This document shows, one piece after another, positions 47,068 through 60,101 of a stretch of DNA of 64,000 nucleotides. The position numbers and the translations under genes were made by a program. The notes under the pieces are model-generated. The model did no database searches, was not told where the DNA came from, and was given only the letters and a program-made list of their open reading frames with translations. How positions within the stretch are numbered: position 1 is the first letter of the stretch; each line of letters begins with the position of its first letter. Source of the stretch: Limosilactobacillus fermentum (lineage in GTDB: Bacteria > Bacillota > Bacilli > Lactobacillales > Lactobacillaceae); assembly GCF_013394085.1 (NCBI RefSeq), contig NZ_CP040910.1:648387-712386 (forward strand), in the 5' to 3' direction.

Positions 47068-48207
<1,140 letters not shown>

Positions 48208-48248: not shown

Positions 48249-48300
48249 CATTCCATTTTCAAAGACCACCCTCGCCACTCTTACAATTTAGCCTGTATTG

Positions 48301-48420
48301 GAGGTTGGCTCGCACTTCCGATAACGTGCTCCCAACCACGGACCTAGTGGCTAAGTACGGCCGGAGAACGATGCGTACCGCATCAACCCCCGTCCTAGCT
48401 TAGCCTAACGGTCCGTCGAG
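48301..48420. repeat. Structured 120-bp tandem repeat, unit 1
   Basis: The unit is repeated at 48421-48540 with three base changes. It contains two nested inverted-repeat structures. Hairpin 1: GGTTGG (48303-48308)/CCAACC (48332-48337) with GCAC/GTGC inside. Hairpin 2: ACGGACC (48338-48344)/GGTCCGT (48410-48416), then GGCTAAG/CTTAGCC, ACGG/CCGT and GATGCG/CGCATC. No ribosome-binding site or credible frame is present. Function unknown. Confidence 0.92.
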
Positions 48421-48540
48421 AAGGTTGGCTCGCACTTCCAATAACGTGCTCCCAACCACGGACCTAGTGGCTAAGTACGGCCGGAGAACGATGCGTACCG
48501 CATCAACCCCCGTCCTAGCTTAGCCCAACGGTCCGTCGAG
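48421..48540. repeat. Structured 120-bp tandem repeat, unit 2
   Basis: 117 of 120 bases match unit 1. All three differences (48421, 48440, 48526) fall outside the predicted stems: before hairpin 1, in its loop, and in the internal loop of hairpin 2. Confidence 0.92.
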
Positions 48541-48558
48541 AAGGTTGGCTCACACTTC
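48541..48558. repeat. Truncated third unit of the 120-bp repeat
   Basis: AAGGTTGGCTCACACTTC matches the first 18 bases of unit 2 except for one G-to-A change. The array then breaks off just upstream of the amidohydrolase promoter region. Confidence 0.85.
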
Positions 48559-57911: not shown

Positions 57912-57947
57912 TAAAAAAACTCGCCCGCGGGCGAGTTTTTTTATTAG
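57912..57947. terminator. Bidirectional terminator, originally of prs
   Basis: CTCGCCCGCGGGCGAG is a perfect palindrome flanked by A7 on the left and T7 on the right. It served prs before the insertion and also serves the convergent Spx-like gene, whose stop overlaps its right edge. Confidence 0.92.
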
Positions 57948-58372
57948 ATTAATTCGGTTTGTACCTGTGGGGTACCCTTCTTTAAGTTGGCCAAGAGCCG
58001 GTTTAATTCAAGTCGGCGTTGGTGCTTAGAGATGAAAACCCCCATCTTCTCTTGGTCAAAGCCGGTCACCATCTTGTGGTCGTTAAAGATGATCGGGTTG
58101 CGCAAGATGTGCGGGCTCTTTTCAATTGCTTGGGCAAGTTGGTTAATGGTTAGATTACGGGCGTCCATTTGCAGGGCCTTGGTATCATGGGAGCGTTTAG
58201 AAATTAAATCGTCGGTCCCGTCCGTGGAAAGGGCGAGCAGGTCGAGGATTTCAGGGGTCGTCAACGGCTCCTTTTCGATGTTTCGTTGACTAACGGTGAT
58301 CCCGTGCTGAGTTAACCATTGAACGGCTTTGCGCTTGGATGGGTCGTTAGTGTGGAAAAATAAATTGACCAT
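57944..58372 (-). CDS. Spx/ArsC-family protein lacking the CXXC motif
   Basis: A 142-residue ArsC-like protein. The Spx-type core is present: KRSHDTKALQMDARNLTINQLAQAIEKSPHILRNPIIF (compare RRPIII of Spx). Where Spx has CxxC at 10-13 this protein has D10-P-S-K13 (MVNLFFHTNDPSK), so it cannot use the disulfide switch. It may bind RNA polymerase constitutively or have another role. The ATG at 58372 lies 7 bases after AGGAG; the longer frame to 58483 crosses a tandem repeat. Confidence 0.82.
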   Translation of the reverse strand: MVNLFFHTNDPSKRKAVQWLTQHGITVSQRNIEKEPLTTPEILDLLALSTDGTDDLISKRSHDTKALQMDARNLTINQLAQAIEKSPHILRNPIIFNDHKMVTGFDQEKMGVFISKHQRRLELNRLLANLKKGTPQVQTELI

Positions 58373-58386
58373 CGAATCACTCCTTT

Positions 58387-58418
58387 GTAAGCTTTTAGAC
58401 ATGTAAGCTTTTAGACAT
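58387..58418 (-). repeat. Tandem 16-bp duplication in the leader of the Spx-like gene
   Basis: GTAAGCTTTTAGACAT occurs twice head to tail (58387-58402 and 58403-58418), immediately upstream of the gene's ribosome-binding site. Each unit holds the palindrome AAGCTT. Confidence 0.9.
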
Positions 58419-58577
58419 TTTAGCAGTTTTCCTTGGTTAGAAACGCTAATTGACTGGTAATTAATGAATTCTTTAGCACTCATTAGTAATTAATTATAAA
58501 TTACTTTGTTCAATTAGGTGTTAGAACAGAAGGGCGGGTGCTAAGGAAGTGAATATGTATATTATACTGCGATAACT

Positions 58578-58611: not shown

Positions 58612-59586
58612 TTATTTAACCTTTTTCTTTTTGCGTAAGTGGCGCACCTGGCGGAAGGGGTAAGAAGCGGTCCCCAGTTCCAGGTCAACGAAGCGGTTAC
58701 CCATTTCCTCACCGTCAACTTGACCAAACTCAAGCGAGGTGGTGGTGTAGTGAAGGTGGGTGCCGACGAAGCGGTGGGCAAAGCGGGACCGGGCCAAGTG
58801 TTCCCGTAAGAAGAGCCACATCGTCCAGAAGGTAATCAGCCAGTTGTGGCGCTCGACGACTAACAACTCCAGGTTGGGTTCGGCGAGGTCACGGTCGGGA
58901 GCGACCTTCCGCCCGCCACCGATAAAGGGGTGGTTAGAGGCAATAACGATAAAGGCGTTAGGGAAGAGCTGGCGGGTGCGCTCTTGTTGGACCATCAGGG
59001 TGAAGGGGGCTTGGTCATATAAGACCCCCAGGGCCTGGGAAACGTAGGAAAAGGCCCCTAAGTGGAGCCGGTTGAGGCGCCGCTTACTTTTCGAAGCGTT
59101 GGTCCGGCTGACCACGGCGGCGTCAAAGCCGATCCCCAAGTTATTTAAAAAGTAGCCGTCTTCGTTTTTAATGGCGTCGTGATAGTGGCCAATGGTGACC
59201 GGTTCGGTAGTTTCGGCATCCAAAATTTGGTGCAGGGCGGTTAACGGGTTGGTTGAGATTCCGTAACCACGGGCGAAATCGTTACCGGTTCCGCAGGGGA
59301 TGTAGCCAATTGGCAGTGGGTGTTGCCGACCGTTTTTGCTCTGCAAGACCCCGTTAACCACTTGGTGTAAGGTACCATCGCCACCGATGACGATCAGGGT
59401 TTCGTCGGGCCGGCCGGCATGCCGGTCGGCCAGGCGCATCGTGAGGTAGGTGGCTCCTTCCTCGTCCCTGGTAAATAACGGGGTGTAGTCGAGTTGGGCT
59501 GCGTCTAAGGCAGCCTTAACGGTTGACCATGTTGAATTCCCCCGGCCCCCGCCGGCCACGGGGTTAATAATGATCGAGTAATGCAT
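58612..59586 (-). CDS. Diacylglycerol/lipid kinase family protein (DagK/YegS-like)
   Basis: A 324-residue lipid kinase. INPVAGGGRG opens the catalytic domain, VIGGDGTLHQVVNGV is the nucleotide-binding motif near residue 70, and PIGYIPCGTGNDFARGYG follows. Family members phosphorylate diacylglycerol to recycle it for phospholipid and lipoteichoic acid synthesis. Substrate is inferred from family. A GGAGG site lies just before the ATG at 59586. Confidence 0.9.
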   Translation of the reverse strand: MHYSIIINPVAGGGRGNSTWSTVKAALDAAQLDYTPLFTRDEEGATYLTMRLADRHAGRPDETLIVIGGDGTLHQVVNGVLQSKNGRQHPLPIGYIPCGTGNDFARGYGISTNPLTALHQILDAETTEPVTIGHYHDAIKNEDGYFLNNLGIGFDAAVVSRTNASKSKRRLNRLHLGAFSYVSQALGVLYDQAPFTLMVQQERTRQLFPNAFIVIASNHPFIGGGRKVAPDRDLAEPNLELLVVERHNWLITFWTMWLFLREHLARSRFAHRFVGTHLHYTTTSLEFGQVDGEEMGNRFVDLELGTASYPFRQVRHLRKKKKVK

Positions 59587-59632
59587 AGTTTCCTCCGGAT
59601 CATCAAAAAAGTGGGTGGGAAATAACCTCCGC

Positions 59633-59715
59633 TGCAGGTCGTATGACTAAGCTAGGACGAACGGTTGGCACGGGACGCACCGTTCTTCGGCCTGCTTAGG
59701 CACTGGAACTACGGT
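59633..59715 (-). repeat. Diverged, inverted relative of the 120-bp structured repeat
   Basis: CTAAGCTAGGACG is identical to the reverse complement of the 120-bp unit. The following ~50 bases (GGTTGG..GACGCA.CGTTCTTCGGCC..CTTAG.CACT) align with it at roughly three bases in four. CTAAGC/GCTTAG and GAACGGT/ACCGTTC form a hairpin in the matching place. Confidence 0.7.
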
Positions 59716-59754
59716 CATTTACCACATTTCTGTCTAACATTCGTGAATACAACA

Positions 59755-59788
59755 AGAGGCCGGGAAAAACAGAGTTTTTTCCCGGCCT
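59755..59788 (-). terminator. Probable rpoY terminator
   Basis: GAGGCCGGGAAAAA pairs with TTTTTTCCCGGCCTC across a short loop. It lies downstream of rpoY on the minus strand. Confidence 0.7.
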
Positions 59789-59845
59789 CCGTTAAACGCG
59801 AACAGATCGGCGCCGCAGGGTTAATTACCGTGGGCCGTTTAACGC

Positions 59846-60061
59846 TTAAAATTCAGTTAACTGGAAGTCCGCGTTGTTTTCTTGTTCGTAGGCCAGTGCC
59901 TTTTCATCCAACAGTTCGATAAATTCAACGTTGTAGTTGGTGTTTTCTTCTACTAACACGCGGGCAGCGGCTTCGGAATCGGCTTCCAGGTATAGGGATT
60001 GGGTGTTTTCCCGACGCGGGGTCGTGTTTTTGCTTGGTTGGTAATAAACTTTGAAAGTCAT
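59846..60061 (-). CDS. rpoY: RNA polymerase epsilon subunit RpoY
   Basis: A 71-residue protein matching the Firmicute RNA polymerase epsilon subunit (DUF1447): [27 protein letters not shown], then [28 protein letters not shown]. It binds near the beta-prime jaw of RNA polymerase and may protect against phage proteins. AGGAG precedes the ATG. An extended -10 (TGC TATCAT) is readable on the minus strand at about 60102-60110. Confidence 0.93.
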
Positions 60062-60101
60062 GTCATGCTCCTATTCATTTGTTCGTAAATTTTACCTAAC
60101 T

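Follow-up and report, generated by a model that had tools for sequence, protein, structure and literature searches.

In the 64,000-nucleotide stretch of the Limosilactobacillus fermentum chromosome analysed here (the window), a copy of a structured repeat element lies in the gap between rpoY and a lipid kinase gene, and two complete units and a partial one form a tandem array elsewhere. The features at the two sites, with bit scores from the covariance model R1 described below, are as follows:

47074–48207, plus strand: mnmA-type tRNA thiouridylase gene (PF03054), upstream of the tandem array
48291–48319, minus strand: partial third unit with the 5' arm only, ending the array (from sequence)
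48323–48436, minus strand: tandem unit 2 (R1, 115.0 bits)
48443–48556, minus strand: tandem unit 1, the first in element orientation (R1, 113.3 bits; period 120)
58612–59586, minus strand: diacylglycerol-kinase-family lipid kinase gene (PF00781), its start codon 27 nt from the left end of the element
59614–59728, plus strand: element copy in the rpoY/lipid kinase gap (R1, 99.1 bits, E 3.9e-24, and alignment)
59647–59659, plus strand: 13-mer CTAAGCTAGGACG, the 5' arm of helix P3 and the start of P4
59729–59755, plus strand: tail linker TCTGTCTAACATTCGTGAATACAACAA, common to other copies
59755–59790, minus strand: terminator-like hairpin GAGGCCGGGAAAAA..TTTTTCCCGGCCTC with a 15-pair stem, resembling hairpins behind other copies
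59846–60061, minus strand: rpoY (PF07288), its 3' end toward the tail hairpin of the element copy

The rpoY-gap copy is antisense to both of its neighbours, rpoY and the lipid kinase gene. On the rpoY strand, a scan of 59500–60100 found no terminator-like stem other than the tail hairpin of this copy, which is probably the present rpoY terminator; the copy itself would lie outside the stretch that rpoY should transcribe. Separately, a perfect 16-bp direct repeat of 2.1 copies (TGTAAGCTTTTAGACA) is located at 58386–58418, in the start region of a minus-strand reading frame (57944–58483).

An earlier note on this DNA had described a 13-base identity between the gap and the reverse complement of the 120-bp tandem unit, a further alignment at about 75%, and a retained outer CTAAG/CTTAG stem, all of which we confirmed. 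CTAAGCTAGGACG is present exactly at three sites in the window (48391 and 48511 on the minus strand, 59647 on the plus strand; 0.05 expected), and local alignment of 59614–59728 with either tandem unit gave 47/59 identical positions, 34/46 (74%) outside the 13-mer. The score of this alignment was 54, compared with a maximum of 29 among 2000 dinucleotide shuffles. The part 3' of the 13-mer alone scored 39 against a shuffle maximum of 25, with none of the 2000 shuffles as good, while the pairwise match 5' of the 13-mer was equalled by 899 of 2000 shuffles and is not significant; homology on that side is visible only in the family alignment. Because similarity beyond the 13-mer exceeded the shuffled controls, if only on the 3' side, the observation stands. 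Its extent, given as 59633–59715, is too short, the element actually covering about 115 bp (59614–59728). The 120-bp tandem repeat spans 48302–48558. The last unit of a tandem array is often truncated to its 5' arm, as at 48291–48319 and at chromosome loci 1531995, 1404361, and 1695886, and a motif count placed such a partial unit behind 35 of 126 clusters.

The units share a fold of approximately 115 bp, a nested hairpin consisting of four helices:

Helix P1: GTGGGAAATAACC/GGTTATTTACCAC, with the subfamily variant GTGCGACCCAACC/GGTTGGGAGCAC
Helix P2: GCAGGTC/GACCTGC
Helix P3: CTAAG/CTTAG
Helix P4: GGACGAA up to the apical GGTGCG/CGCACC

The sequences of P1 and P4 differ among subfamilies, with the pairing retained. 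The earlier note had suggested a covariance model of three copies; we built R1 (116 positions) from the 22 full 13-mer copies (alignment A1), and its searches of the chromosome and the genus found further copies. Compensatory changes, likewise proposed there for examination, were counted against shuffles and slid partners with a favourable result: 92.9% of the cells in A1 pair, compared with 35–41% with slid partners, 16 of 43 pairs are changed on both sides, and covariation is 0.242 versus 0.121 in shuffles, with the score reached by 0 of 500. The count of further pair types alone was not above shuffles in A1 (222/500). P3 is invariant in A1, partly because the copies were picked by the exact 13-mer, which leaves most of P3 unable to vary there; three truncated copies were left out. 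Alignment A4, comprising 41 copies from relatives (insertion-bearing, redundant, or very divergent relatives omitted) and two from L. fermentum, was folded without the model and yielded the same four nested helices, with 29 of 39 pairs doubly changed. A1 and A4 were not fitted to the model, whereas A2, A3, and A5 were. Typical copies fold much more stably than shuffled sequences (z −5.8 and −7.9).

Comparison with the family revealed that, of the 43 consensus pairs, the rpoY-gap copy retains 36, the lowest number among the 22 copies of A1. Its apical helix reads GGCACG/CGCACC with two A·C mismatches, the homologous helix being GATGCG/CGCATC in the tandem copies and GGTGCG/CGCACC elsewhere. The inner stem GAACGGT/ACCGTTC, which the earlier note had taken as the counterpart of GATGCG/CGCATC, is a local alternative pairing; family alignment and fold comparison ruled it out as the homologous helix. 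The plus strand of this copy folds no better than shuffles (z −0.86), while the minus strand does (z −4.12), and the copy has no G·U and four A·C pairs in its own sense, reversed on the strand transcribed by its neighbours. The rpoY-gap copy is a worn, decaying member of the family in antisense, and its value lies in revealing the family.

Searching the 1,887,974-bp chromosome revealed CTAAGCTAGGACG at 25 exact places (reversed control, 0), all within one alignable element. R1 gave at least 147 chromosomal matches when the best 150 of 943 candidates were scored, so that the count is a lower bound. In the 94 loci examined there are 165 sense matches to R1, which together with the three truncated 13-mer copies and five further matches make at least 173 copies or relics, approximately 1% of the chromosome. 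The tandem unit is thus a member of a dispersed structured family and not a one-off duplication, as had been proposed. Within Limosilactobacillus, 31 of 50 genomes contain matches, and a deeper search of ten relatives gave 13 to 27 each, a few of them antisense shadows; across species, copy number ranges from 0 to at least 147. Family-wide, 8 of 251 genomes gave matches (best 14 candidates per genome scored), and order-wide 2 of 295 (best 12 scored), all of them Limosilactobacillus; R1 matched none of 292 genomes from 73 other genera of the order at the best 12 candidates each, a depth at which, as with 14, copies in other genera could escape if weak or rare. Named carriers include L. balticus, L. 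reuteri, and Lactobacillus sp. 0.1XD8-4. Copies are also located on one L. panis plasmid and on a plasmid of Lactobacillus sp. JM1, the latter lying between thiD and a thiamine phosphate synthase gene and starting about 3 nt past the stop codon of thiD; the phages searched gave no match to the element. An exact 15-base pattern is no evidence alone, because it has many chance matches outside the genus: among the 80 loci listed of 97 stretches in a contig scan, the model confirmed none outside Limosilactobacillus records and Lactobacillus sp. 0.1XD8-4, and the matches in Levilactobacillus and Streptococcus were dropped. Rfam 15 gave no match above the gathering score over the element in the window, nor any in four loci at relaxed E-values, and no description of the repeat was found in the open-licence papers searched. 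The repeat is abundant and apparently undescribed. In four copies (L064, L071, L077, and L078), from genomes G028 and G031 of two species and with match positions near 1590–1630, the 3' internal loop has an extra stretch of about 24 nt (GCAAATAGCCTTGCTTCGCGGC), of which copy L061 carries a reverse-complement-like version; it may be a further small repeat lying within the first.

To describe placement, genes were called by codon usage in the L. fermentum chromosome and by ORF length in relatives. None of the 165 copies lies inside a predicted gene, the largest overlap being 12 nt. Among 119 clusters with both neighbours (antisense shadow matches and 7 edge clusters left out), 58 are convergent, 28 sense tandem, 28 antisense tandem, and 5 divergent. 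Sixty-six of the 119 begin within 12 nt of a same-strand stop codon, compared with 8.1 ± 2.7 expected under uniform placement and orientation. This anchoring is one-sided: where the left end faces a stop codon, the distance is at most 12 nt in 66 of 86 cases, compared with 1 of 86 for the right end. For relatives, a 12-nt limit from the stop codon takes in 36 of 66 sense copies and 1 of 63 antisense copies, and a 32-nt limit 59 and 2, respectively. The TGA or TAA overlaps AGTG of the left end in five copies, and in three the stop codon is a TAA within P1. Behind 42 of 126 clusters there is a tail motif, in many cases together with the linker and a terminator hairpin of the same type, which bring the element to about 185 bp.

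Since sense and antisense clusters are equal in tandem gene pairs (28:28), transcription of the element is not required. That equality fits a purely selfish, MITE-like repeat which would move as DNA, with the fold as recognition of a folded single strand and gene 3' ends as the sites of least harm. The share of the genome, the plasmid copies, and the range of copy number across species also fit such a repeat, as does the frequency of convergent sites (58/119), which is like that of RUP, SPRITE, and IS elements in pneumococcus in the cited part of PMC3049150. The one-sided distance to the stop codon is, however, left unpredicted, as is the excess of G·U over A·C in sense copies, and we regard a purely selfish repeat as possible but doubtful.

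With antisense shadow matches left out, pairs that are mostly Watson-Crick hold 186 G·U against 87 A·C in L. fermentum and 75 against 13 in A4. Counted by pairs, the ratios are 22:10 (p 0.05) and 19:6 (p 0.015), respectively. A1 shows no significant excess by cells (20:10), and its ratio by pairs is 7:8. By context, the G·U to A·C ratio in the best 150 L. fermentum copies was 54:15 for sense tandem, 82:43 for convergent, and 29:28 for antisense tandem clusters, with cluster permutation giving p 0.004 for sense versus antisense and p 0.05 for convergent versus antisense; the sense/antisense test was conceived after the rpoY-gap copy had been seen. In relatives, the ratios were 41:0 (sense), 113:8 (convergent), and 25:4 (antisense; permutation p 0.03, phylogeny uncorrected), with a G·U excess in the antisense copies as well. 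The strand difference in folding energy was independent of gene context (p 0.62). The excess of G·U in the helices, largest in sense copies, suggests that selection acts on the RNA, as it probably does, which fits the keeping of a transcribed hairpin. Template switching is known to produce paired changes, and the unit is a long quasi-palindrome within which compensatory changes might arise mechanically and not by selection. Such a process would not favour G·U over A·C by orientation (54:15 versus 29:28), and we consider it very unlikely as the source of the covariation.

The nearest relative found (G016) has no R1 match. Both flanks were located in its stretches for 37 of 126 clusters, and in the pairs listed a stop codon is mostly followed by a terminator, with the element standing between the two in L. 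fermentum. At the rpoY locus, G016 has 30 nt (a 24-nt stem-loop beside an A-run), compared with 232 nt in L. fermentum. The native stem is gone at the rpoY and 1801172 loci, while at locus 1354521 the native terminator is retained beside the element; in three genes (98527, 1285969, and 1780168), the left end of the element replaces the last one to six codons. No target-site duplication was found, the flanks of the G016 empty sites being about 70–88% identical and empty sites occurring only in the relative, and neither the G016 nor the DR9 comparison gave a fresh single insertion matched by an exact empty site.

Comparison with strain DR9 revealed both flanks for 34 clusters, 25 of which have unchanged intervals. 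Five differ by units (2 versus 3, 3 versus 2, 1 versus 2 twice, and 2 plus a partial versus a partial alone), three are longer in DR9 with transposase genes annotated there, and at one (locus 1052118) DR9 carries another element past the stop codon of the opposite convergent gene. Among 13 further DR9 matches, 6 agree, one extra unit is present in 2, another kind of difference in 2, and 3 are unplaced. Gain and loss of the 120-bp unit need only recombination between direct repeats, which explains the unit changes within arrays that make up most of the strain differences. Two DR9 "plasmids" in PLSDB, CP033372.1 (760 kb) and CP033373.1 (252 kb), carry genes for ribosomal proteins as well as rpoA and secY and are about 99% identical to the L. 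fermentum chromosome; they are apparently chromosomal segments that were deposited as plasmids. Covariation, stop-codon anchoring, and the 25 of 34 loci unchanged between strains would suit ancestral regulatory 3'-UTR RNAs, vertically inherited, duplicated with their genes, and immobile. Against this origin stand the syntenic G016 loci without the element, the occurrence of both orientations, the plasmid copies, and the two alleles at 1052118, which hold different copies behind opposite genes, making it most improbable.

Among Y1 transposases and reverse transcriptases, no mobilising partner was found. IS200/IS605 or RAYT (Y1) transposases were rejected as movers, eight genomes without Y1 holding 5–17 copies and G016 having five Y1 and no copies. 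Group II intron-type reverse transcriptases were rejected as well: the L. fermentum genome has none, and their presence does not track the copies. Four relatives (G030, G033, G036, and G037) have 11–31 reverse-transcriptase domain matches per genome, many in an open frame of 473–477 residues.

Several known repeats resemble the element in part. EFAR of Enterococcus is reportedly about 170 bp long with two stem-loops, its insertion replacing a 24–37-bp stem-loop, as Venditti et al. are said to have described in 2007. The rpoY locus, with its 24-nt stem-loop in G016, resembles such a replacement, and 1801172 fits it; 1354521 does not, so that at least one site here keeps its native terminator, unlike EFAR. 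Efa repeats of Enterococcus faecalis, also in the Lactobacillales, are larger than REPs and lie near gene 3' ends in the cited passage of PMC1590033, as does the repeat described here; EFAR/Efa belong to Enterococcus, whereas R1 had no match outside Limosilactobacillus in the 292 genomes searched at 12 candidates each. Bacterial MITE-like elements are outlined in the cited section of PMC2229807 as shorter than 200 bp, without protein, with terminal inverted repeats and target-site duplication, A+T-rich with TA ends, and moved by a transposase in trans. The present repeat fits in size (116-position model, at most 12 nt of overlap with any predicted gene) and has terminal inverted repeats, the 12–13-nt complementary, sequence-variable P1 arms, but lacks A+T richness and TA ends (A1 copies are 49–64% G+C, with ends GAAGTG/CACGTTAT). 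The same section makes YPAL an exception on these two points, targeting areas of dyad symmetry (PMC2229807). YPAL/RU-2 of Yersinia (168 bp) and ERIC/IRU/RU-1 of enterobacteria (127 bp) appear in the cited parts of PMC2229807 and PMC3049150 as small intergenic imperfect palindromes like the present one, and ERIC there can alter mRNA stability in an orientation-dependent manner. Both belong to another phylum, target-site duplications are reported for both and none was found here, and stop-codon anchoring and 120-bp tandem arrays are absent from those passages. RUP, BOX, and SPRITE of Streptococcus pneumoniae share an intergenic location, folding, and enrichment between convergent genes, and BOX also supplies stop codons in some genes (cited passages of PMC3049150); the TA target and IS630-like ends given for RUP in the cited part of PMC2229807 have no counterpart found here. 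REP/BIME likewise exceed 100 copies per genome and are extragenic and palindromic, but REPs are 20–40 bp with a RAYT transposase in the cited passages of PMC2817692 and PMC3733652, compared with a unit of about 115 bp and no link with Y1_Tnp here.

On balance, the element is probably a genus-specific, non-autonomous amplified repeat that is tolerated and perhaps used as a 3'-UTR hairpin. The unit, one long nested imperfect hairpin (P1–P4), would lodge at gene 3' ends, typically with its left end just past the stop codon, sometimes supplying that codon, and its right end toward the terminator hairpin, and once lodged would be gained and lost in 120-bp tandem steps. We infer that copies spread by insertion through a putative enzyme. 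Where the neighbouring gene reads the repeat in sense, it would become a 3'-UTR hairpin lying between the stop codon and the terminator, with the RNA fold of such sense copies probably kept by selection. By analogy with ERIC, NEMIS, and BOX, the transcribed hairpin might shield the mRNA 3' end or be cut there, an effect drawn from related repeats in the cited passages of PMC1590033, PMC3049150, and PMC2229807. A more specific, and unlikely, role is that of a translation-coupled 3'-UTR device at dozens of genes: P1 would begin within the footprint of the terminating ribosome, and the 115-nt hairpin would fold only after release, so that what becomes of the mRNA 3' end would depend on whether the upstream gene is translated, with the device spread by a mobile repeat and kept by selection on RNA.

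Rfam thus lacks an element that accounts for about 1% of the chromosome, has a covarying RNA-like fold, and lies behind the stop codons of many genes. L. fermentum is a common food and probiotic bacterium. Whether repeat families may become 3'-UTR RNA parts can be tested on this element, and the number of 120-bp units is a fast strain marker. Transcriptome or terminator analyses of Limosilactobacillus should mask or model the element.
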